A stretch of 39,019 nt of DNA from Spirogloea muscicola (Eukaryota; Streptophyta; Zygnematophyceae; Spirogloeales; Spirogloeaceae): contig WELB01000009.1 in the NCBI GenBank assembly GCA_009602725.1, forward strand, positions 567,062-606,080, written 5' to 3'. A program made the translations under genes and the position numbers. The notes under the pieces were generated by a model. It saw only the letters and a program-made list of their open reading frames with translations. It searched no databases and was not told the origin of the DNA. This document shows, piece after piece, positions 484-37,039 of the stretch. The stretch's first letter is position 1. Every line of letters starts with the position of its first letter.

Positions 484-3400
484 ATGCGAGGCGCGCCCAG
501 CGCGCACCCGCGCGCGGCCGCTGCGCACCTCTTCAAGCTGCCTCACGCAGCGCTCTACGCTCTCGCCACGCTTGGCGCCGCGTTGGGCGCCACTGCGCTA
601 CCGCTGCATGCAGCTGCCGGTACGTGCTTCTTGATCACGCAGGGCTAGTGATTGTTGAAAGCAGGATATGCAGTGAGTGCTGCAAGCGAGCTGTGATCTT
701 CGACGATATTCCGAAGTCGAAGCGAGCCACCACGCCAGAGCCAGTATTTGATGCGTGCTGCTACCCAAGCTTACAATGTTAGCTCCGCTTTGCAAGCTAC
801 TCAAGACACACTTGCAGCTGTCATATTGTCCTTGACACTTCAAGGACCAGCATGAAGAACAATCGAACCTGCTCGATTGGGCCTTCATATTTCCTGTTGA
901 AACATGTAGATGCTGAGGAGATATTAAGGCATCAATTCTCCATTTCAAATTATTAGACTGTGCGATGCAGGTGTCCTTCAACATTATCATCATGTACCAA
1001 GGAGTGCAGGCTCTCACAGGCAACTTACTAAGCACCGCGGAGTAGACCTGTATTCCAGCATTCTCTCTAGGAACGTAACTGTTGACTTCCGAGTGGCCGG
1101 CAAAGGTGAGAAGCTAGCATATAGATATTCGGTCCATGCAACCGCACGCGGATTGCGCATGTGCATATATATCTGGTCAATGTGCATCTAGTCAGATATA
1201 TCAAGCTCAGCGCCTCTACCTTATTCTCTAACAAAAGCTACTTCTATAGGAGCGTATGTCTATATTTGATTTGAGATCCTTGCCACAAGAGACTGATATA
1301 TTATTAAGCACCGGTTGTCAGGCCAGCTTGACTAAGTCATGAATGCCTTCGTCCTTGCAGAAGTCGAGGCTAGAACAGCCTTCGTTTGGTGCAGTGACGA
1401 GGCTTGTCTTCAGGACAAGATTGCATCTGATCGATCAGCCAGTGTCTACCTGGACAAGGACATATTGCTCACTGCTCCACTGCCAGAGGTTCAACATAGC
1501 TTTACAATTGTCGGAGCCTGTGACAGTGGCCCTTGCAAGATTGACGGCGACAACAAGTTCCAGGTTAGGCTGTTTCCACGATCTTTACACATCTTCGACA
1601 GCCGTGTGCACCTTATGTGCTTGTTTACACAGAGGTCTTACATGTATTGACCTTCTCCAGCTGATTGCATGCCGTCAAAGATGGTCAACCTCCTCTAACT
1701 ACCTGTGTCTGCATATCACAGATATTTCATGTCTTAGCAGCCGCAAGCTTGTCTCTTCAGAGTATTACCCTCATCAATGGCGTGGCCACAGACTATCCAG
1801 CAACAACAGTAAGCTTCTCTCGTCTCTTGACCCCAATTGAGCTATGGCTTTCTACTCGCATGATTGCATCCAAATTGTCTTGCGTACTTTCTTGCACTGT
1901 CTGTGTTCCTGCGCAACCTCCTGATGAGCATATACTTGACAGGAAGGTGGAGCTGTATATGTAGCTGCATCGCTACCATTTGTGATGAAGACGAAGTTCT
2001 CAGCCATAGCAGTCAACTTTATCCACAATACTGCTATAGTGGCAGGAGGGGCGGTCTACATTGGTGCTGGATCAATGGCATACTTTAAAGACGTCTCATT
2101 TGCTAACAATCTTGGCAATGTAACTATGCGAGTCCTCTATGCTTGCTCACATCTTATTATTACCGAGCTAAATGCTTAGGCATTGACGGCTGTCATGCAT
2201 GCTTTTCGCTGGACGATTCCCTTCTGAATACACGTGAATTTGACCTTGTAGCTTCGAAGACAAAGTTGCTGCTGTGCAGTGATCTCACCAACTCCGGCAA
2301 CGCTTTCTTTGATCAATAGTCCGTCTGCGGTCCCACAAGCCACTGTAACGCCATGATTGCTGATGAGCATCTGATGTTCCTACTGCCAGCCCCCAGCTGG
2401 TGGTTATGCTTTCGGAGGAGCGATCTATCTTGGTTCAGCTAATGCTCAAACATCAACAGGCGGCACGGGCCTGGACAGTTGCTCGACCTTTCAGAATGTA
2501 TCTTTTGTGCACAATGTTGCCTGCTTTGGAGGAGGAATCTTTGCTGATGATGCCTCGCCCGACCTTGAGATGGTAAGAAGCTATCGAAAGGCCGTCACCC
2601 TCTTGTATGATTTATCAAGGAAAGGGGTTTATCCTCTCTAAGCATGTTACACGCGTCCCACAACACCCTCAAGTTGAAAAGGAATTACTCACATGATGTA
2701 CTGCTTCTCCATTACTTAGACATGTACCTTGCTGTCCAGAACGGAGGAAGTAGACTGGATTGCTACGATTGCACCTTCTCAGATAATGTGGCACGCGAAG
2801 AGGGAGGTGCAGTGCATTTGGCTGCTCAAGGTGGTGGTGCACTTGCACATTTTTACACATCTGCATTCAATCACAACAGTGCAGGGGTAAGTTGGCCGTC
2901 CCAATCACAAGGGCAGCTGCGCACTGACTCTGCAGAAGTAGCTGTACAGATACACACGGTAAAATTGATTGTTTGCTTTTCGTAGAACTCAAAGCCAGCA
3001 GCAAAATTTTTACCTCCTCTGTCGCAGATATCCGGTGGAGCTATCAGCAGTGAGGCATCAGTTGGTGAAACGTCGGGAGTGCAAGCATCTTGGTTGGATT
3101 CTTCGTTCCAAATGAACACAGCCCCAGTAAGTGGAGCATTTCTGCAGCCAACATGCAGACGAGTCTGCAGCTGCGTGCAGATTGATCAGAATGTAATTTC
3201 TAATGAGACGAAGTTATTGAAGTAAAGCGGTGGTCAAGAGACCATACTAATCGGGCATGTGAATTACACAGGCTGGGATGGCGATGAAGGTGGACAATAA
3301 TGCCAACTTTGTGATAGTGAGGACTGAGTTTGTATCGACAGCGTCGCAAGCCTCCACAGCCGAGGAAGTCCTCTGTGATGGCAACTGCAGCTTCTGCCCG

Positions 3401-6400
3401 ACAGAGCTGAAGGCGCCACAAATCCAGGGCTCAGGAACGATAACAACTCTGTGTAAGTCCAGCTCTTGAGAGTCTGCTGCATGGGCATCAGACTGACTCA
3501 GCATCTCATTACCATGCACCATGAATCCTGCACCATGAATTTTAACTTCAACCATTGCTTGGTACTGCAGCAAGTTGTCCGACTGAGCAGGCCAAGTGCG
3601 TGTGTTGCTATACACCACCGAGCTGCGACAACCCACCTCATCCTCCAAGCAGCCCTGGTGACCTCCCTCCTCCAAGTCCACCATCTCAGTCACCGCCATC
3701 GTATCCACCACCTCCACCCTCTTCCCCTCCCCCTCCCCCTCCACCACCACCACCACCTCTATCACCTCCTCCTGAGTCCCCCTCTCCACCACCCTTCAGT
3801 CCTCCTCCGCCACCTCCATCACCTCCGCCCCACTCCCCACCCCCACATCATCCTCCACCATCACCTCCTCCTGAGTTCCCATCTCCACCACCCTTCAGTC
3901 CTCCTCCGCCGACTCCACCACCTCCGAGTCCTCCTCCACCTCCATCACCTCCACCACCCTCCCCACCTCCACCACCTCCGCCTCAACCATCTCCTCCTGC
4001 GTACCCCTCTCCACCACCCTTCAGTCCTCCTCCGCCACCTCCATCACCTCCGCCCCACTCCCCACCCCCACATCATCCTCCACCATCACCTCCTCCTGAG
4101 TTCCCATCTCCACCACCCTTCAGTCCTCCTCTGCCTACTCCACCACCTCCGAGTCCTCCTCCACCTCCATCACCTCCACCCTCCTTCCCATCTCCACCAC
4201 CTCCGCCTCCACCTTCTCCTCCTGAGTCCCCCTCCCCACCACCCTTCAGTCGTCCTCCGCCACCTCCATCACCTCCGCCCCATTCCCCACCTCCACATCA
4301 TCCTCCACCATCACCTCCTCCTGAGTTCCCATCTCCACCACCCTTCAGTCCTCCTCCGCCTACTCCACCACCTCCGAGTCCTCCTCCACCTCCATCACCT
4401 CCACCCTCCTTCCCATCTCCACCACCTCCACCTCCACCATCTCCTCCTGCGTACCCCCATCCACCACCCTTCCGTCCTCCGCCGCCACCTCCATCACCTC
4501 CTCCTCCATCACCTCCTCCTGCGTTCCCCTCTCCACCGCCCTTCAGTCCTCCTCCGCCACCTCCATCACCTCCGCCCTCCTTCCCACCCCCACCACCAAC
4601 TTCACCACCACCTCCTCCTGCATACCCCACTCCACCGCCTCCAAGCGCTTCTCCGCAAAGTCCATCACCCTCGCCCCCCGCCCCACCTCATCAACCTCCT
4701 CATCATCCTCCACCATCTCCTCCTCCGCCCCCCTCTCTACCACCTCCAAGTCCTCCTCCGCCCCCTTCACCACCTCCAAATCCTCCTCCACCTCCACCAC
4801 CTCCACCACCCTTCCCTTCTCAACCACCTCCGCCTCCACCGTTTCCTCCTGCGTCCCCCTCTCCACCACCCTTCAGTCCTCCTCCGCCACCTCCATCACC
4901 TCCTGCTCCACTGCCACCTTCACCACCTCCAACCTCCAGTCCTCCACCGCCGGCTCAGCCCCCACCTCAACCTCCACCCCCAACACCTCCTAGCTCTCAC
5001 AAACGACCACACCCCCCACCTCAGTCAGTGCCATCACCTCCACTCTCCCCCCCTCCCCCTCACAGTCCTCCGGCTGGCCCCCCACCTCAACCACCTCTTC
5101 CTCCACCACCCCCTCCAGCGTCCCCCTCACCACCACCTCCAAGTCCACCTCAGCCACATCCATCACCTCCGCCCTCCTCCCCACCTCCTCCTCCATTGCC
5201 ACCTCCACCACCTCCACCACCTCCACCACCTCCAATGTTCAGCCCTCCCCCTCCAGCTAAACCCCCACTTCAACCTCCACCTCCACCACCTCTAAGCTCT
5301 CACGAACTCCCACACCCACCTCAATCAGTGCCATCACCTCCATTGTCCTCCCCTCCCCCTCACAGTCCTCCGGCTGGCCCCCCACCTCAACCACCTCCTC
5401 CTCCACCAAACCCTCCTGCGTACCCCTCTCCACCACCTCCACCACCTCCAAATCCTCCTCCATCACCTCTGCCCTCCTCCCCACCTCCTCCAATGCCACC
5501 TCCACCACCTCAGCCCTCCAGTCCTCCTCCTCCCAGTCCTCCTGCCAAGCCCCCAGCTCAACCTCCACCTCCACCACCTCCTAGCTCTCACAAACCACCA
5601 CATCCACCTCAGTCAGTGCCATCACCTCCAGTCTCTCCCCCTCCTCCTCACAGTCCTCCAGCTGGCCCCCCGCCTCAACCACCTTCCCCTCCACCAGCCC
5701 CGCCTGCGTCCCCCTCACCACCACCTCCAAGTCCCCCTCAGCCACCTCCATCACCTCCGCCCTCCTCCTCGCCTCCTCCTCCACTGCTACCTCCATCACC
5801 TCCAACCTCCAGTCCTCCCCCGCCGGCTAAGCCCCCACCTCAACCTCTACCCCCAACACCTCCCAGCTCTCACGAACGACCACACCCACCTCAGTCAGTG
5901 CCATTACCTCCAGTCTCTCCCCCTCCTCCTCACAGTCCGCCAGCTGGGCCCCCAACCCAACCTCCTCCTCCTCCACCAACACCCCCATCGTCCACCTCTT
6001 CACCACCTTTGAGTCCTTCACAGCCACCTCCATCACCTCCGTCCAATCCACCTTCTCCTGCACTGCCACCTCCACCACCTCCAACGTTCAGTCCTTCCCC
6101 TCCAGCTGAGCCCCCACCTCAACCTCCACCTCCACCACCTCCAAGCTCTCACAATGCCCCACACCCACCTCAATCACCTCCTCCACCAACCCCTCCTGCG
6201 TACCCCTCTCCACCACCTCCAACTCCTCCTCAGACACCTACATCACCTTCGCCCTCCTCCCCACCTCCTCCATTGCCACCTCCATCACCTCAGCCCTCCA
6301 GTCCTCCTCCTCCCAGTCCTGCTGCCAAGCCCCCACCTCAACCTCCACTTCCACCACCTCACGATTTGCCACACCCGCCTAAGTCAGTGCCATCACCTCC

Positions 6401-9400
6401 AATCTCCTCCCCTCCCCTTCACAGTCCTCCGGCTGGGCCCCCACCTCAACCACCTCCCCTCCCACCAGCTCCTCCAGCGTCCCCTTCATCACCACCTCCA
6501 AGTCCTCCTAAGCCACCTCCATCACCTCCGCCCTCCTCCCCACCTCCTGGTCCACCACCTCCTCCAGTGTCCCCCTCCTCACCACCTTCAAGTCCTCCTT
6601 TGCAAGCTCCACCATCTCCGCCCTCCTCTCATCATTCTCCCAGATCTCCAGCTAAGGCCCCCCCTCAACCTCTTCTTCCACCACCTCCACCACCTCCGAG
6701 TCCTCAAAACCCGCCAACCCCACCTCAATCACCTCCATTCGCCTCCCCTCTTCGTCACAGTCCTCCAGCTGGCCTCCCACCTCTTCCTTCACCTCCTCCT
6801 GTGTCCCCCTCTCCTCCACCTCGTAGTCCTCCGCAGCCACCTCCATTACCTTCACCGTTCTCCCCACCTCCGCCTCCACCACCTCCTCCAGCATCCCCTT
6901 CACCACCACCTCCAAGTCCTCTACCACCTCCAAGTCCCTACAACCCTCCACCCCCGCCTCAAGCAGTGCCATCACCTCCATTCTCCTCCCCTCCCCCTCA
7001 CAGTCCTCGGGCAGGCCCCCCACCTCCACCACCTCCCCCTCCACCACCACTTCCTGCGTCCCCCTCTCCACTACCTCCAGGTGTTCCTTTGCCACCTCCA
7101 TCACCTTTGACCTCTTCCCCACCTCAACTGCCTATACCTCCAGCAGCTCCTCTTCCTGCGCCCTCCTCACGACCACCTATGAGTCGTCTTTTGCCACCTC
7201 CATCACCTTTGTCCTCCTTTGAGCCCCCACCTCAAGCTCCACTTCCAACACCTCCTCCGGCATCCCCACCTCCGGTAACTTCAAGTCCTCATCGCCTCTC
7301 ACCTTCTCCGCTGTACCCACCTCCTCTGAGTCCTCCACCTCCTCCTTCACCACCTCCTCCCTCACCACCATCTCTGCCCCTATCCCCATTCCCTCCACTT
7401 CCTCCTCCACCGTCTCCGCAGACCTCCCCACCCCCTGGTCTGCCTCCTCCACCAATTCCACCACCTTCGCCATCTCCCGACAGCTCTCCTACAGGACCCC
7501 TACCTCAACCTCCACCCCCGCAACTCCCTCCTGCGTCCTTCTCTCCTCCACCACCTCTGCCATCAACACCCTACTTCCCTCCTCCTCATAGTCCCCACAG
7601 CGTCTCAGTTTCGCCTCCACCTCCACCACCACAACCTCTGATGCCTCCACCTCCTTCTTCATCATCTCCACCCTCCTCTTCCCCTCACAGTCCTTCTGCT
7701 AGCCCCCCTCAACCTCAATCACCTGCTCCTGTAAACCCCTCCCCTCCACCACCCCCTCTGGCATCCCTCTCTCCTCCAGATCTAAGTCCTCCCAGCCCTG
7801 TACTGTCATTTCCGTCTCCATCCCCACGCCCTTCAAATGCTGGTCCACCTTCTCCACCACCAAAATCACCTCCACCCTCTTCTTCTTCCAATGCCAGTGC
7901 TTCTAGCCCCCGACCTCAGTTTGCGTTACCTCCTCCTGAGTCCCTTTCTCCACCCTCCTCCCCTCGTCATCAAATGATTCCTCCTGGCCCTCCACCTCAG
8001 CCCTCGCCAGCTTCTTCGCCAACTTCTTCGCCAACTCCTGTGTCACGCTCTCCACCTTCCAGTCCTCATAGCTCGGTACCCCCACCTCCATCTCCTTCTC
8101 CACCATATGTAGTAATATCTCCACCATTCTTCCCTCCCACTCAGAGTCCTCTTGCTAGCCCCCCTAGTCCACCCCCTCTTCCACGTCCCCCTGCTTCACT
8201 CTCACCTCCATCTCCAAGTCCTGGTGCTCCACCTCCTTCTGCACCGCCTCCAGTCGTTCTCTTGCCTCCCCCTCCTCAGCCTGGTCCACCTCCAGCTCCA
8301 GTTGCTCCAGTCCCGTTCCCTCCTCCGCCTGTCATCATGTTATCACCACCCATTCCTCCGCCCCCTGGGATGAAGCTGACAAGCCCGCCCATATTACATC
8401 CTCCATCCCCAGCTTCTCCAATCCTCTACCTCAGCCCGCACCCCCCTCCTTCCAGCGGCCATGCACCAGCTCCTTCCCCCAGCTCCACTCCGATCCCCCA
8501 CCTCCCTCCTCCACCCTTACTGAGCTTGCAGCCAAGCCCATCTTTCCCCTTTCTACCACCTCCGCCATACTACCAGCATGACCACTCTGGCTCAGCCCGC
8601 GATCACCCTCCACCTCCACCGCTTCTTGAAGCTCCACCTCCTTCCTCACCACCTGCCCGCTCTCCAGCGTCGCCAGCCCCATCTACTTCCACGCCTCCAT
8701 TGTTGGGGCCAAGTCCAGCTCCTGCACCCTTGCAGATGCCACCCCCTCCCTCCTCAAGGGCTGCGCCACCAGTGCTGTCAAGGCCTCCACATCCTGTCCT
8801 TCCTCCGCCCTCCATGGCCTCACAGCCACCGCCACAGTCAACAGCCACACCTCCGACCGGCACCCCATCCTCCACACAGGCCCCGCCGTCACTACCGCCA
8901 CCGCTGCCGCCGCCGCCGCACAGCTTGGCCAAGCCACCAAGCACATCACCTTCACCGCCCCCACCTTTGCCTCCACCAAATGTTCCACTTACACCCTCTC
9001 CTCCGTCCTTCCCTCCACCTAGACCTTCACCACTCAGTGGTCACTTGCCTCCACCTCCTTTGGGCCCCTCCCCTCCACCTGTGACTGGCCCCGCCCCCAG
9101 TCCTGCCTCTCCCAGTCAGCTCCCTCCCCCAGCGCCGGTTCTCCAACCTCCACCAGCAGCCGCTGCACCATCGTCATTGGGCACTGGCAACGCTTCCTCA
9201 GGATCAAGCCACACCCACCCTCCTCCAGCTCCACAGCCAGTGCAGAGTCCTATCGTCCCATCACCTCCTCCCCTCTCTGCTCCTCCATATTCACCTCCTC
9301 CACGCTCAACCTTGTCACCAGCTCCATCCCCGTCCGTACCGCCGCTCCCACCTCCACCTTCATCTCCATGGCCCCCTCCGCTGCTTTCACCACCTCCTCT

Positions 9401-11210
9401 GCCAATGCCATCGCCAGTTCCGCAGACCCACCCCCCTCCTTTGTCAAGGCATCCACCTCCATCTACTCCCTCCACCCCTCTGCCTTCGCCGTCTGCAACA
9501 CATCCGTCGCCGCCATGGCCGCAAGCCACTCCCTCATCTTACTCCAGATCCCCTACTCCCATACCACACCACCTCCCTCCAGTCTCTCCTCCTCAAGTAG
9601 CAACGCCACCTCATGTTGCTCAACCGCCTAAGAGTCTACCTCCCTCCTTCCATCCTCCTCACCTACAGCCCCCTCCTTCATCCTCCCAGAATCAACCTCC
9701 GGAGTTCCCCCCTCCTCTGCACCACCAGGCCCCTCCTGCCTTCCCCTATCCATCCCACCAGGAGACCTCTCCTCCCCCCACTCAGACACCCTCTCCCTCC
9801 TCCCCCTTACCTCCTCCTCAAGAGTCTTCACCTCCCTCCTCTCAAAGTCCACCTTCCTTCTTGCGGCCTCCTCCGCCCCAAGAGGCCTTCCCTCCTCCAT
9901 CTCTCACTCCCCCGTCCACCAATTCTGGGAAACCTAGTCCACCTGCTGCTTCTGGTTCTCCTTCTCCAAATTGTACCTGCAACCAGGCTCAGCCTCCCCC
10001 AGAGCCCTGCCCACACCATGGCCATCTGAAGAGGCACCACCACGCACACCAACATCGTAAGCTCACGGGCTCTCGATTCTGGCACCTGATGGCCAATTGT
10101 CTTACAGAAGCCTCGCGCCAGTCTTAGCAAGTCAGTCTTGCTAATGAAATTGCATCCACATGTTGCAGGCCCAAGCACAAACGATACACAGCCGGGCGTG
10201 AGAGGTGATCCCCACCTCATTGGCAAGCACGGCGAAAGGTTTGATTTCTTAGGCAAAGCCGGGAAGAGCTACTGCCTCGTTGCTGACAAGGCGCTTAACA
10301 TCAACATGAAGCTTGTGGCTGGGTATCGCAAGCACACAACAGTAAGTACTTGATCAAATGCCCAAACGACCAATTGCAATAGTTTTCGGGGCACTATCAA
10401 TATGTGAGATGTGCTTTCACTTTCTTGCATCACCAAACATTGCAATGGCTGATGCCCTTGTTGCTTCTTCTGACGCTCATGAAATACATGGGGGTAATGA
10501 CATGCCTGCCTGCTCACAAGCAGCTCTGCTTATGCACTCTTCCGATTGCGTGCTTGCAGTATATCACACAGATAGGCATCATATTGGGGAAAGTGCAAGT
10601 ACGTATATCTGCAGACAAAGCTCCTCGGACACCCGGCAAAGTCAGAGACGTGATGCTGGGCGAGATTGACGTCAACGGCGTCCTCCTTGCATCAACTGTA
10701 AGAAACATGACTATTGGAGAGCTGGAGCTCAGGAGGTCCAGGCGATCTGTGAGACTCGTGCAGATGGGTTTGTTGGACGTGGAGGTGGAGGTGAAGCGTG
10801 TGGTGTACTGGAAAGGTGGACCTCAGCAATTCTATGTGAGCACCTACCGAGCCCCAAAGCTCATGATATGCCGACCCTTCTACTTGTCTGACCTGGTAGA
10901 AAGGGAGAAGAGCTCGCCCATAGAGAAGGAAAGCTAGCTGACATGATAATGAGACTTGATAATGAAACTGCTGACTGATCAGACACTCCTGCCTTCGTGT
11001 GTGCAGCTGAATGTCAACGTGGACCAGCTGCAAGTGTCGGCAACTGTGCATGGCGTGCTGGGCCAGACGTACCGCAAAGCAGCACCTCTTGGCCGACAAC
11101 ACCGTAGGCGCCACCATGGCGCCTTCAAGATCGAAGGCACAGAGCTTGACTACCGCACAGCCAACGTGCTGGATCCTGGTTGCCGCTGGGGTCCGCAAGG
11201 CCAGAACTGA
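484..11210 (+). CDS. Giant secreted Pro-rich protein: POMP-like beta-helix, 2,162-codon PPSPPP region, C-terminal GDPH/root-cap-like domain
   Basis: Modelled exons: 484-619, 1010-1105 (tentative; its acceptor could be at 971), 1361-1563, 1722-1808, 1943-2119, 2390-2572, 2740-2886, 3028-3126, 3272-3452, 3571-10056, 10169-10341, 10560-10835 and 11007-11210. All phases agree and the total is 8,448 nt (2,815 aa). The start at 484 gives an N-terminus ending in a hydrophobic run (ALYALATLGAALGATALPLHA), read as a signal peptide. Exons 3-9 carry repeats of the polymorphic-outer-membrane type, such as NTAIVAGGAVYIGAGS, HNVACFGGGIFADDA and DNVAREEGGAVHLAA, which suggest a right-handed beta-helix. A Cys-rich junction (SCPTEQAKCVCCYTPPSCD) leads into the Pro/Ser exon, probably hydroxyproline-rich and glycosylated. 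The end resembles plant root-cap (PF06830) or vWD-like domains: RGDPHLIGKHGERFDFLGKA, then GVLGQTYR. A cell-wall or extracellular role is inferred; the substrate is unknown. Confidence 0.85.
1361..3452 (+). other. Beta-helix region encoded by small exons (POMP-like repeats)
   Basis: This is the part of the large gene that encodes the repeat domain. Five consecutive exons, 1722-1808 (29 codons), 1943-2119 (59), 2390-2572 (61), 2740-2886 (49) and 3028-3126 (33), begin and end in phase 0, so any of them could be skipped or duplicated without a frameshift. Each carries the pattern F-x-x-N-x-A-x-x-x-GGA(V/I/F), as in chlamydial Pmp proteins and many algal secreted proteins. The exon at 1361-1563 holds the cap-like lead-in (SFTIVGACDSGPCKIDG). 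The donors are mostly GTAAG. Confidence 0.8.
3571..10056 (+). repeat. Pro/Ser-coding low-complexity exon with higher-order tandem repeats
   Basis: This single exon of 6,486 nt is open throughout and encodes mostly PPSPPP, SPPPP, PPHSPP and similar motifs. Two levels of longer repeat are visible. Between about 3780 and 4475 a 225-bp (75-codon) unit recurs: the landmark TTCAGT falls at 3795, 4020 and 4245 (TTCCGT at 4470), and a second landmark at 3894, 4119 and 4344. From about 4990 to 5960 a looser unit of 282-300 bp recurs, marked by QSVPSPP...HSPPAGPPPQPP (landmarks near 5021, 5321, 5609 and 5891, with diverged copies near 6380 and 6960). From about 7100 the repeats are more degenerate, and Ala, Thr and His become more common. 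Confidence 0.9.
10169..11210 (+). other. C-terminal GDPH/root-cap-like domain (three exons)
   Basis: Exons 10169-10341, 10560-10835 and 11007-11210 encode about 218 residues that read RGDPHLIGKHGERFDFLGKA, then YCLVADKALNINMKL, then a beta-rich stretch (VRLVQMGLLDVEVEVKRVVY), and finally GVLGQTYR near the end. The opening GDPH-x-x-G...FDF-x-G...Y-LV-x-D and the late GVLGQTY are shared by plant root-cap/LEA-type proteins (PF06830) and are distantly like von Willebrand D domains. Splice phases match exactly: the Pro exon ends in phase 1 and the next exon starts with two bases. The role is unknown; surface or matrix interaction is plausible. Confidence 0.75.
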
Positions 11211-26074: not shown

Positions 26075-28469
26075 CTAGAGGACTGGGCTGGGCAGAGCCT
26101 CTCGTGCGATGGAGGCCTCGATCTCGGCCGCAGCAGCAGCCTCCCTTCCCAGAATGACCGTGACGTGGTCGGCGCCAGAGACGGCCCGTAGGTCAACGTT
26201 GGCATGCTTGGCTGTCAACTGCAGACTGTGAGCGTATGGACATACAGCGTCTGCCGAGCCATGGATGACTCGAACTCGGAGGCCGGCGAGGTGGAGCAGG
26301 TGCAGTGTGGGGCCAATGAGCGCCGCACCACCGCAGATGGTGTTGTGGAAGATGTGCCATGCGGAGTGGTGTGTGTGCTGCATGAAGTCAGCGATGAACG
26401 AACGCGGCACCCTGCAGAGGGGCTGAGAAGGTCAGTCTTGCACCCTGCATGAATGTGCTAGGCATCTAGAGGCATGATTAGCTTACAACGGCCGTGTTAG
26501 AAACACTAATGTCTTCTTACTTACAAGTTATCCAGTGCTTAAAGTTGCGACCTTCAATGTAAGCCTTCCCAAGAAGACCAAAGTCTGCGCTCACCTGCGC
26601 CGTGAAAGCAGTGTAGCTGCAGCACCGAGGACAGGCTCCCACAAGCGGTGATTACGGCAGAGGATAAAGCAGACGACGCGCCCAACGTGCTCATGGTGCG
26701 ACATGAGCGCCATGCCGAATGCCAGAGGTGGCCACAACGTCCGCCGTATGGCCTTCTCAAGGTACTGCTCGGCGGCGGGCACGCCGGGTGGCGTCGCCAC
26801 GTAGGGCTGCATCAGCATGGCCGCCGCTACCATGCACGTCAGCCTCAGTGCTGCTCGCAAGGCAGCCAAGGCTAACAGCTGCGGTGCCAGCGTGGAAGGC
26901 AGCGGCACAGGCACTCACGGGTGAGAAGAGCGTGACGGAGGCCACCTCCAGAGGGTGGCAGGCGGCCAGCGCCAGGGCGACGAGGCAGCCCATGGAGTGC
27001 GCTACAATGTGGAAGGACCGCAGGCCGTACCGAGCGATGACCGATGCCTGGATCGTCTCCACGTGGTCACACAGAGTGTACAGACAGTCCGTCGGCTGCG
27101 CTCCAGCGAACAAGCAGCGATGAGCACCATCAGCGGCTGTTGGGCTGATTGGGAGGACTGGTGCTCAGCATGGGGGCTGGCCCTCACCTTGGGGCTCCTG
27201 CCGAAGCCGAGGAGGTCCACAGCATAGAGGCGGTGCGTGGCCAAAAAGTGCTCCGAGAAGTGCGGCAGCACAGTGTCGACCCAGAACGACGAGGAGGCCG
27301 CAAAGCCATGTAGAAAGATGACGTCGCTAGCCTCATTGACGGGCACTCTTGGGATCTTGTCAGAGCCTGGAGCAGTGCCGGCGAGGCCCTTGTGTGCACG
27401 CTTGGGAAGGCGCGACCCGGCGGCAGTGGTGGCGGCGCACGTGCGGTGCACGTACAGGTGACCCTCAGAGGTTCTCCAAGCCGAGCAAACGCCACAGCCG
27501 CAGTCTGACCAGCGATGGCGAGACAGGTGCTCGCCATCACCGCGGTGCACTCCGTGCTTCGAGGCGCCCGCGTCGCCCTTCTCACGCCGGAGGGCTTTGT
27601 GGAGGAGCGCCGCAACAGCGCGCAGCTCAGTGGTACGCTGCGCGAGGCCGTCGCGGCCCATAAGCGGCTGGCCTGCTGGCGCTGGCGGTGGCGCTGGCAA
27701 ATTTAGCAGGCGAAACGTGACGCCAGACACCGCCTCTAGGAGAGGCTGCTGCTCCGCCGCTGCCTTGGCGATCTTAAGCGTGCCGACTGTGTCCACCTCG
27801 TCGGCCCCTCGCTTGGCCGTCTGCAAGGAGGCCGTCGCAACCTTGTAGATGGCAACGCGGCCAGTCGGCCGCACCACCCTCCGTCGCCGCGCTCGTAGCG
27901 TTGCCGAGACTGCCGCCAGGCGGTTGGCCGCGGCCGCAACGGCCTCCGCTTCTGCTCCGCTTTCTCCTGCACCGTCGTCGTAGCTGGCGAGGGCCTCGTC
28001 CCAGGCGGCCGTGCGCTTGCGCTCGGCACAGTAGCACGGCGGCGCGCCGCTTGGACACCACGCATCTGCCAGCCTGCACACCTCAACGCCAACGGGTCAC
28101 CAAACCTCAGCGGCCCGTTGCAAGTGAGGCTCAGAGAAGGCAACGATGTCCCCTCCGGATCGTGGCGAAGGCGACGGCACAAGGCCGCACTGGCCATTGC
28201 CATGGAGGTGGCGCCAAAGGACGTCCAGATGGTGGCGTTGCCGTCTCTCTGGACAATGCATCGACGGCCGCTGACCGAGTATAGGTCCACTCCTCTATCT
28301 GAGTCGTTGGTCGGGGGACCTCGAGTGCACCTGAAGACGGGGCAGAGCACGCGGTCCAGGGCCTCCAGGAGCGCGAAGGCGGCCCGGTCCGCAAGCCCCC
28401 GGCACACCGCCAGCAGGCGCCCGCCGCCGGCGGCCAGGAGGTCCCCCAGCGCCCGCGCCGCCGCCGCCG
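26075..28469 (-). CDS. Alpha/beta hydrolase, BODYGUARD-like; 5' end in an N gap
   Basis: Arabidopsis BODYGUARD (BDG) is an extracellular alpha/beta hydrolase needed for cuticle formation; its reaction is unsettled. Exons in transcription order: gap to 28331, 28073-27188, 27095-26919, 26806-26595 and 26411-26075 (stop at 26075). Phases match throughout. Features shared with BDG are the hydrophobic lead-in ALLEALDRVLCPVFR, PSGAPPCYCAERKR, VIFLHGFAASSSFWVDTVLP, LYAVDLLGFGRSPK-PTDCLYTLCDHV, the nucleophile elbow HIVAHSMGC, TLWPPLAFGMALMSHHEHVG, HHSAWHIFHNTI, VIHGSADAVCP (acid Asp) and VSGADHVTVILGR (His). The triad is therefore complete. The long second exon adds about 200 Ala/Arg-rich residues between the N-terminus and the hydrolase fold. 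The start codon is not visible because Ns fill 28470-28642. Confidence 0.87.
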
Positions 28470-35730: not shown

Positions 35731-37039
35731 ATGAAGCTCCTGAGGGGCCTCATGGGCAAGATGTTCAAAGGGCACGACGACTCGGCCGGAACTTGCTCCG
35801 AGACGGTGTGCATTGCGCCTCCCCTTAACAGCACCGGCGACAGCACGGAGGACCCCGGCCCAGTGCTTCTGGAGCTCTTCACCTCGCAGGGCTGCAGGTT
35901 GGTATGGAGCACGGAATGCCTGCATTGCCAACTTCTGCTCCTGTATATGTCACCCCCTTATGAGCACGTCACAATGATTCTTGTGTAAAGAGCACGGCGT
36001 TCTGACCTTGAGTTCAACATCGCATTTGCGCAGCTCCTGCCCGCCGGCTGACCACGTTTTGAGCAAGCTCGGTCGCGGGAGCTCCGCAGGCGTGCCAGTC
36101 ATTGCGCTAGCGTACCACGTCGACTACTGGGACTACCTGGGCTGGAAGGATCCCTTTGGCAGCGCGCAGGCGAGTGACCGGCAGCGCGCCTATGGGAGGG
36201 CACTGAGCCAACGCAGCGTTTACACACCAGAGCTGGTGGTGCAGGTGCGTGCTGTCAAAGCCCTTGTTGAGCGAGCGCAGAAGTGGATGCAAGTTCACCT
36301 GATTCACTAGAAGCCTCACTCATGATAACCCCTACTCGAGCTTGAGAATCTGGAGTCCGAAGGATGACTCCTTTGGATGGCCTACCGATGTGTGTGGGAG
36401 GCTCATGCCACAGTTGGGCTAGCAGGGTGCAGAACACTGCGTGGGCTCCAGCACCAAGCAGGTCGAGAACCTCATAAGCACAGCATCACGCTATCCTGCA
36501 CCTGAGATTGAGGTGGGTTATGCCGCTGCACACTACAAGGAATCTGCCTCTTGCGCCAACTTTAGGTGGTCGAGATTATTGGCTCCTGTCACTTGCAGAG
36601 CTCACCCCTGCACTTGAGCAGCAAAGTCATCAGCCTCAGCACTCAGCTCGCAATTAATGTTGAATTGATGCGAGCGCAGGTTACTACTGAGCAACTTGAG
36701 ACCATGCTTAGGATCACCCTCGTGGCTTCGACACCAGCTTGGATACGAGATGGGAAGCTTGGAACAATCAGCGTCATGATTGCTCTCTATGAGAGCAAAA
36801 AGCAAACCAAATGCAGTCGGGGCGAGAACCGTGGCAAGAATCTCGTGAATGACTACGTTGTGCGGGATCTCAAGCAAGCCTGCCAGCTGGCACCAGATGC
36901 TCGTGCCGCCAAGTCGGAGCTGCAATTTCCGCTGGCGCCTGGCACTAATCTCACCAATTGTGGCCTCGTCGTATTCCTCCAGGACCTGGCCACAATGCGA
37001 GTGTATGGCGTCAAAAGTGTCAATTTGACTGACGCGTAA
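35731..37039 (+). CDS. DUF1223 family protein, thioredoxin-like
   Basis: Modelled exons are 35731-35897, 36034-36244, 36426-36512 and 36599-37039, giving 906 nt (301 aa) in consistent phase. Family hallmarks: [24 protein letters not shown] (a CxxC-type Cys site at an exon junction), VPVIALAYHVDYWDYLGWKD, PFGSAQASDRQRAYGRAL, RSVYTPELVVQ, GAEHCVGS, and near the end VMIALYE, CSRGENRGKNLVNDYVVRDL. DUF1223 is best known from proteobacterial secreted proteins and is predicted to adopt a thioredoxin-like fold; the biochemical role is unknown. The frame stays open upstream to 35278, so an N-terminal targeting peptide from an earlier start is possible. I chose 35731 because the codons upstream look like GC-rich untranslated sequence (Leu/His/Ser-rich). 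Confidence 0.85.

Follow-up and report, generated by a model that had tools for sequence, protein, structure and literature searches.

The pherophorins of Volvox and Chlamydomonas are built of a globular head, a rod rich in hydroxyproline (Hyp), and a second globular head, both heads being of the DUF3707 (PF12499) type. Here, we describe a predicted gene with the same head–rod–head plan, but with different heads and outside the chlorophyte lineage of the pherophorins, in a 39,019-nucleotide (nt) stretch of the Spirogloea muscicola genome. This stretch, hereafter the window, is C9:567062-606080 (contig C9 is WELB01000009.1) in an assembly of 153 Mb and 471 contigs. Neither head of the gene product matched DUF3707, and a relationship with the pherophorins was therefore rejected. 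A pherophorin search of the genome found none, but it is no proof of their absence, because the same search was silent in every control genome.

A protein with at least two SPPP repeats and a domain foreign to Hyp-rich glycoproteins (HRGPs) is classed as a chimeric extensin (PMC5073881, PMC4769139), and one of more than 2,000 amino acids (aa) as a long chimeric extensin (PMC4769139). Extensins and arabinogalactan proteins are described in charophyte walls (PMC10762512), and the survey of Liu et al. (2016) lists long chimeric extensins for Ostreococcus, Chlamydomonas, and Volvox, whereas none of the remaining species surveyed, among them K. flaccidum and land plants, had one (PMC4769139, cited in PMC10762512). 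The Spirogloea gene is like these green-algal proteins in exceeding 2,000 aa and in combining repeated SPPP with non-HRGP sequence (PMC4769139); it differs in belonging to a streptophyte and in carrying a PMP beta-helix and a DPH/Root_cap head, the comparison extending to length, repeats, and lineage but not to the published head domains.

Other described proteins share parts of the plan. The Populus chimeric extensin PtEXT30 likewise has SPPP-type motifs and PF06830, but it is only 467 aa long, its motif counts are given as 5/0/0/0, and PF06830 is the single domain listed for it (PMC5073881). AnIBP of the streptophyte alga Ancylonema also joins an N-terminal beta-solenoid to a C-terminal DPH/Root_cap domain; its solenoid, however, has the DUF3494 ice-binding fold and not the PMP one, and the main text describing it uses neither "proline" nor "linker" (PMC10796529). 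LRX extensins likewise begin with a folded N-terminal head, followed by an extensin part that serves as wall anchor (PMC4477543), but the head consists of leucine-rich repeats in place of a beta-helix, and a C-terminal head is absent. The Chlamydia Pmp autotransporters share the GGA[IVL]/FxxN beta-helix repeats, whereas the Spirogloea gene is eukaryotic and intron-rich, and a Pfam scan of its two head pieces gave no match to the autotransporter or the Pmp middle domain. Word matching in open-licence literature did not return the full domain order among the matches listed. The combination of PMP beta-helix, rod, and DPH/Root_cap thus appears unusual and new, while its parts and the extensin class are already known.

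Results

A predicted single gene and its counterparts

Thirteen exons joined by GT-AG introns give 8,547 nt in a single open frame that ends in a stop codon and encodes 2,848 aa; a further in-frame stop lies nine codons 5′ of the ATG. As the first-pass annotation of the window had claimed, the exons are in phase, and the product runs from a signal-like N-terminus through a POMP/PMP-type beta-helix, a Cys-rich hinge, and a Pro/Ser rod to a GDPH/Root_cap domain; a Cys-containing basic linker lies between the rod and the last domain (Table 1). The N-terminal 46 residues contain the hydrophobic stretch AALYALATLGAALGA at residue 22 and an AxA-like end, which on visual inspection we take for a signal peptide; outside the folded heads, it is the sole signal-like segment of the spliced model.

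All 13 exons have counterparts in the same order on contigs C51 and C84. The C84 stretch that was compared starts 35 bases into exon 1, and its frame is open throughout. Because the frame is open across the joins in both C9 and C84, separate genes seem unlikely, and the sequence supports well the conclusion that the beta-helix, rod, and GDPH/Root_cap parts form one gene. The heads of C9 and C84 align without gaps, and exon 10 comprises 2,162 codons in C9 and 1,786 codons in C84, while in C51 it spans 6,986 nt and is frameshifted; since its length differs in this way between C9 and C84, the spacer evidently tolerates length change. When the beta-helix head was used as the query against the genome, 24 of 24 matches fell in C9, C51, and C84, eight per locus. 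Of the 30 matches to the C-terminal head, nine fell in the same three loci and 21 outside them.

Exons 4–8 are all in phase 0-0. Together with the symmetric rod exon in phase 1-1, this is an arrangement that would permit exon shuffling.

The N-terminal beta-helix head

The head scores 33.8 bits against PF02415 (cut-off 20.6) and 28.7 bits against NCBIfam TIGR01376 POMP_repeat (cut-off 15), which bears out, at the level of sequence, the POMP-type beta-helix named in the first-pass annotation. Within residues 189–386, GG[AG]x occurs seven times and FxxN six times, as in GGA[IVL]/FxxN coils, and these 13 motifs were reached in 0 of 20,000 shuffles of residues 91–440 (mean 1.35, maximum 7). The head is acidic, with an isoelectric point (pI) of 5.1. 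A sequence search of the Protein Data Bank (PDB) with it gave no match at E up to 1, and a search of viral contigs gave six pattern matches, none of which was confirmed. The genome search with PF02415 for other PMP genes returned no match; it is blind to this gene, because it also missed the copy in the window.

The C-terminal DPH/Root_cap head

The DPH domain was described by Prochazkova et al. (2024) as a predicted beta-sandwich followed by Root_cap, and DPH/Root_cap is termed streptophyte-specific in that report (PMC10796529). The secretome of the streptophyte alga Penium includes root-cap proteins, one of which is reported to have no homologue in Volvox or Chlamydomonas (PMC6027541). Our C-terminal head is best read as a DPH domain plus Root_cap. 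The equivalent C84 exon reaches 26.9 bits against PF06830, or 28.4 bits with the neighboring exons, and is marked above the curated cut-off of 27. An alignment of the head with five relatives from the same genome has 17 invariant columns in six sequences, one of which lacks the GDPH exon; Root_cap is matched by all six, and the GDPH/GDPR start and the HGVLGQT[YF]-type end are common to other members. Searches with the DPH head gave 8 pattern matches in prokaryote genomes and 25 in viral contigs, none confirmed.

The root-cap/GDPH identity proposed earlier is the best reading of this end, whereas the von Willebrand factor type D (VWD) family link suggested along with it is not supported. No Pfam VWD match was found in the C-terminal part at E up to 1. 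The PDB profile search matched the head to the Fc fragment of IgG binding protein (FcGBP; E 9.2e-5), but this match consists mostly of the GDPH motif: six of the eight matched stretches cover the first 18–19 positions only, and the other two reach position 64 of 237.

The Pro/Ser rod and class assignment

The rod consists of 54% Pro and 78% Pro, Ala, Ser, and Thr, and no Pro-free stretch exceeds 16 residues. The long open Pro-rich spacer noticed at first is thus real, although the 2,162 residues ascribed to it are the codons of exon 10, and the rod itself measures 2,113 aa. PPSPPP-type repeats are present, but they do not form a uniform rod: Pro makes up 68% of the first 200 residues and declines to 38% by the end of the rod, whose first half holds 66 of the 87 SPPP+ motifs. 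The Pro frame of exon 10 has no stops over its 2,161 codons in C9, where the two remaining forward frames contain 18 and 29, and that of the C84 rod exon likewise has none, as compared with 10 and 25. It should be noted that open reading frames (ORFs) of up to 612 aa occur in the non-Pro forward frames of exon 10; the length of the rod frame by itself says little, because C/T-rich DNA has few stops in any forward frame.

With 87 SPPP+ motifs, non-HRGP heads, and a modeled length of 2,848 aa, the predicted product is best filed as a long chimeric extensin. No YXY motif, which most classical extensins carry, was found in the rod.

Table 1. Exons and encoded features of the predicted gene (positions in the window; residues of the 2,848-aa model).
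Feature	Position	Strand	Remarks
Exon 1	484..619	+	start ATG, signal-peptide-like N-terminus; counterparts aligned in C51 and (from base 36) C84
Exons 2-3	971-1105, 1361-1563	+	N-terminal head begins; exon 3 with four Cys; counterparts in C51, C84
Exons 4-8	1722-1808, 1943-2119, 2390-2572, 2740-2886, 3028-3126	+	POMP/PMP-type beta-helix; PF02415, TIGR01376, motif shuffle test
Exon 9	3272-3452	+	followed by intron 3453-3570
Cys-rich hinge	3374..3626	+	residues 424-468, 8 Cys; end of exon 9 and start of exon 10, intron 3453-3570
Exon 10	3571-10056	+	6,486 nt, 2,162 codons, symmetric phase 1-1; open 5,358-nt counterpart in C84
Pro/Ser rod	3630..9968	+	residues 470-2582, 2,113 aa, between flanking Cys clusters
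Cys-containing His/Arg-rich linker	9969..10203	+	residues 2583-2623; intron 10057-10168
Exon 11	10169-10341	+	follows intron 10057-10168
GDPH ("DPH") domain with Root_cap end	10204..11207	+	residues 2624-2848, exons 11-13, pI 10.0
Exon 12	10560-10895	+	spliced model
Exon 13	11007-11210	+	spliced model
Root_cap (PF06830) match	11031..11186	+	contains HGVLGQTY motif

Proposed Function and Alternatives

We consider it rather probable that the gene encodes a secreted long chimeric extensin whose glycosylated rod carries two heads with different partners and which functions, as a tether or scaffold, within the wall or sheath. According to this proposal, the protein would enter the secretory path, and its SPn blocks would be hydroxylated and arabinosylated. 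The glycosylated spacer would then form a stiff polyproline-II rod with a contour of up to ~0.65 µm at 0.31 nm per residue. The values of pI 5.1 for the beta-helix head and pI 10.0 for the DPH head suggest that the two bind different partners; the acidic end might, for example, contact a surface or a protein, and the basic end acidic wall polysaccharide or further DPH heads. Its role would be that of a long tether or scaffold working through non-covalent contacts. The cell-wall or adhesion role suggested in the first-pass annotation agrees with such a secreted product.

Several observations weigh against this proposal. The binding partners are guessed from charge. Because the rod lacks YXY, one would not expect the isodityrosine cross-links of classical extensins, and the C-terminal half of the spacer, apart from its start, has 38–50% Pro and may not form a stiff rod. 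The Root_cap score of the window copy, 24.1–24.8 bits (E 4.1e-5 at 24.1), lies just below the cut-off. In the C51 copy (C51:608400-619700; L063, L064), single-base indels interrupt exons 4, 7, and 8, the Pro frame of the rod changes three times, and the donor that follows exon 12 is GC; unless these lesions are assembly errors, part of the genome may contain the gene in a state of decay. The gene model is drawn from genome sequence, and the C-terminal head may have a separate start: an ATG at 10144, within the modeled intron before exon 11, is in frame with that exon, and three such in-frame ATGs lie in the corresponding intron of C51 and again in that of C84.

The same architecture could also belong to a mucilage or holdfast adhesin, in which the beta-helix binds surfaces or neighboring cells and the rod gives reach, outside the wall proper. 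We regard this as the less likely function, though one deserving attention: beta-helix proteins of the PMP type in Chlamydia are described in host interaction and adhesion (PMC10715098, PMC11166332), but no ligand site was recognized in the Spirogloea sequence, and nothing in it separates an adhesin from an intrinsic wall role.

The intron ATGs bear on a different possibility, namely that two adjacent genes, one for a beta-helix and Pro-rich protein and one for a DPH/Root_cap protein with a missed start, were wrongly joined. Five further DPH loci (L018-L022) do resemble short stand-alone secreted proteins. They carry a signal-like hydrophobic stretch before the domain, whereas no such signal was seen by eye in the peptides that would run from an intron ATG to GDPH. 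In the spliced model, the ~150 residues preceding GDPH contain no Met and no strong hydrophobic segment; across residues 470–2623, the 15-residue mean hydrophobicity never rises above 1.13, as compared with 1.67 at the N-terminus. Given also the identical exon order at three loci and the joins that are open in C9 and C84 (C51 being frameshifted), we judge a wrong join to be improbable and retain the single gene. As a separate observation, translation of an alternative transcript from one of the intron ATGs could yield a DPH protein that lacks a signal.

A freeze or desiccation protein like AnIBP, with an ice-binding beta-solenoid and an oligomerizing DPH domain, would have the same broad plan of beta-solenoid and C-terminal DPH (PMC10796529). 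This reading is very improbable: neither a DUF3494 match nor a TxT array was found in the N-terminal head, which has just two TxT tripeptides, and ice binding needs no rod of this length.

Selection was estimated from the copies as the ratio of nonsynonymous to synonymous divergence (dN/dS). Between C9 and C84, dS is 0.18 for the N-terminal and 0.23 for the C-terminal head; for the latter, it is 0.20 between C9 and C51 and 0.17 between C51 and C84. The corresponding dN/dS values are 0.39 for the N-terminal head (C9–C84, 420 codons) and, for the C-terminal head, 0.21 (C9–C84), 0.17 (C9–C51), and 0.26 (C51–C84), at 236 codons each, with Fisher p of 3e-6 and 1e-8 for the C9–C84 comparisons. In six N-terminal head exons compared between C51 and C9, omitting exons 4, 7, 8, and 10, dS ranges from 0.07 to 0.17 and dN/dS from 0.11 to 0.58 per exon, with few changes and the highest value in exon 1. 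The main comparisons (0.17–0.39) indicate that both heads are under purifying selection. That the locus is losing its function, its ORF surviving since C-rich and T-rich repeats have few stops, would agree with the C51 frameshifts and the long ORFs in other frames of exon 10, but hardly with the main dN/dS range of 0.17–0.39 or with a Pro frame free of stops where the other frames have 10–29 in C9 and C84, and we give it very little credence.

The C-terminal head of C51 keeps its dN/dS of 0.17 relative to C9 despite the lesions, as in recent decay or assembly error.

Lineage of the Source and Significance

The first-pass annotation had looked toward chlorophytes for relatives of the gene, while three nuclear markers, PsbO, GapA, and RbcS, point to Streptophyta. 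Against the PDB, PsbO scores 365–383 bits with five land-plant entries and 298 or below with chlorophyte entries. GapA scores 351–361 bits with land-plant structures and 313 with Chlamydomonas, spinach GapB, a paralogue, giving 311. RbcS scores 168–197 bits with plant-type entries, whereas Chlamydomonas and one more entry of algal type give ~151 and 144; the matched stretch is ~117–120 residues in plant-type entries and 124–125 in algal-type ones, consistent with the short loop of plant-type RbcS. The organism assignments of the PDB entries are our own and, for RbcS, cover those other than the top entry, 9pvb. Because all three markers score higher against land-plant than against chlorophyte structures, we conclude that the source is a streptophyte, presumably an alga. 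The rbcL gene was not found in the assembly.

Several GAPDH genes lie on three or more contigs, and RbcS was found on C39, C8, C42, and C441. Such repeated genes give the genome the look of three homeologous sets, although PsbO was found on a single contig. The three copies of the gene described here, with dS of ~0.2, likewise suggest an old hybrid or polyploid genome.

Tentatively, the locus may represent a streptophyte long chimeric extensin whose rod, ~0.65 µm in length, joins two dissimilar heads, one a PMP beta-helix of bacterial type and the other a root-cap domain of plants, although we hold this fuller reading to be possible and not yet probable. If true, giant head–rod–head wall proteins would not be confined to chlorophytes, and root-cap domains would first have served as wall-anchoring heads in algae. 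The symmetric phase of the rod exon would be consistent with an origin by exon shuffling. The gene joins, in one streptophyte, the long chimeric extensin, which one survey reported from chlorophytes only (PMC4769139), and the DPH/Root_cap domain described as streptophyte-specific (PMC10796529). It offers a concrete candidate for giant glycoprotein tethers in early streptophyte walls, and for what a root-cap domain may do in a rootless organism, either head of which could be expressed and tested for pectin, callose, or cellulose binding.

Root_cap Family and Neighboring Open Frames

The Root_cap family is large in this genome, with 36 Pfam matches, the C84 copy among them (loci include L005-L008 and L018-L038). 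Some members are short proteins in which a brief Pro-containing linker connects a signal-like stretch to the domain; others have a Cys-containing N-terminal part that resembles Ole e 1. In a subset of the Root_cap matches, scanned with flanks of ~1.5 kb on each side, some of them runs of N, so that a rod further upstream could escape, the richest 100-residue segment holds 14–37 Pro in 29 other loci; five loci that belong to the three copies reach 45–73, and two at the tail of the rod have 37 and 40. On contig C279, an open frame of 6,238 aa is listed, and in the piece taken from there, L019, the sequence upstream of the domain includes a stretch of N.

Elsewhere in the window, an open frame at 27005-28096 (−) matches the alpha/beta-hydrolase family PF00561, and one at 36566-37036 (+) matches DUF1223 (PF06764) at 50 bits.

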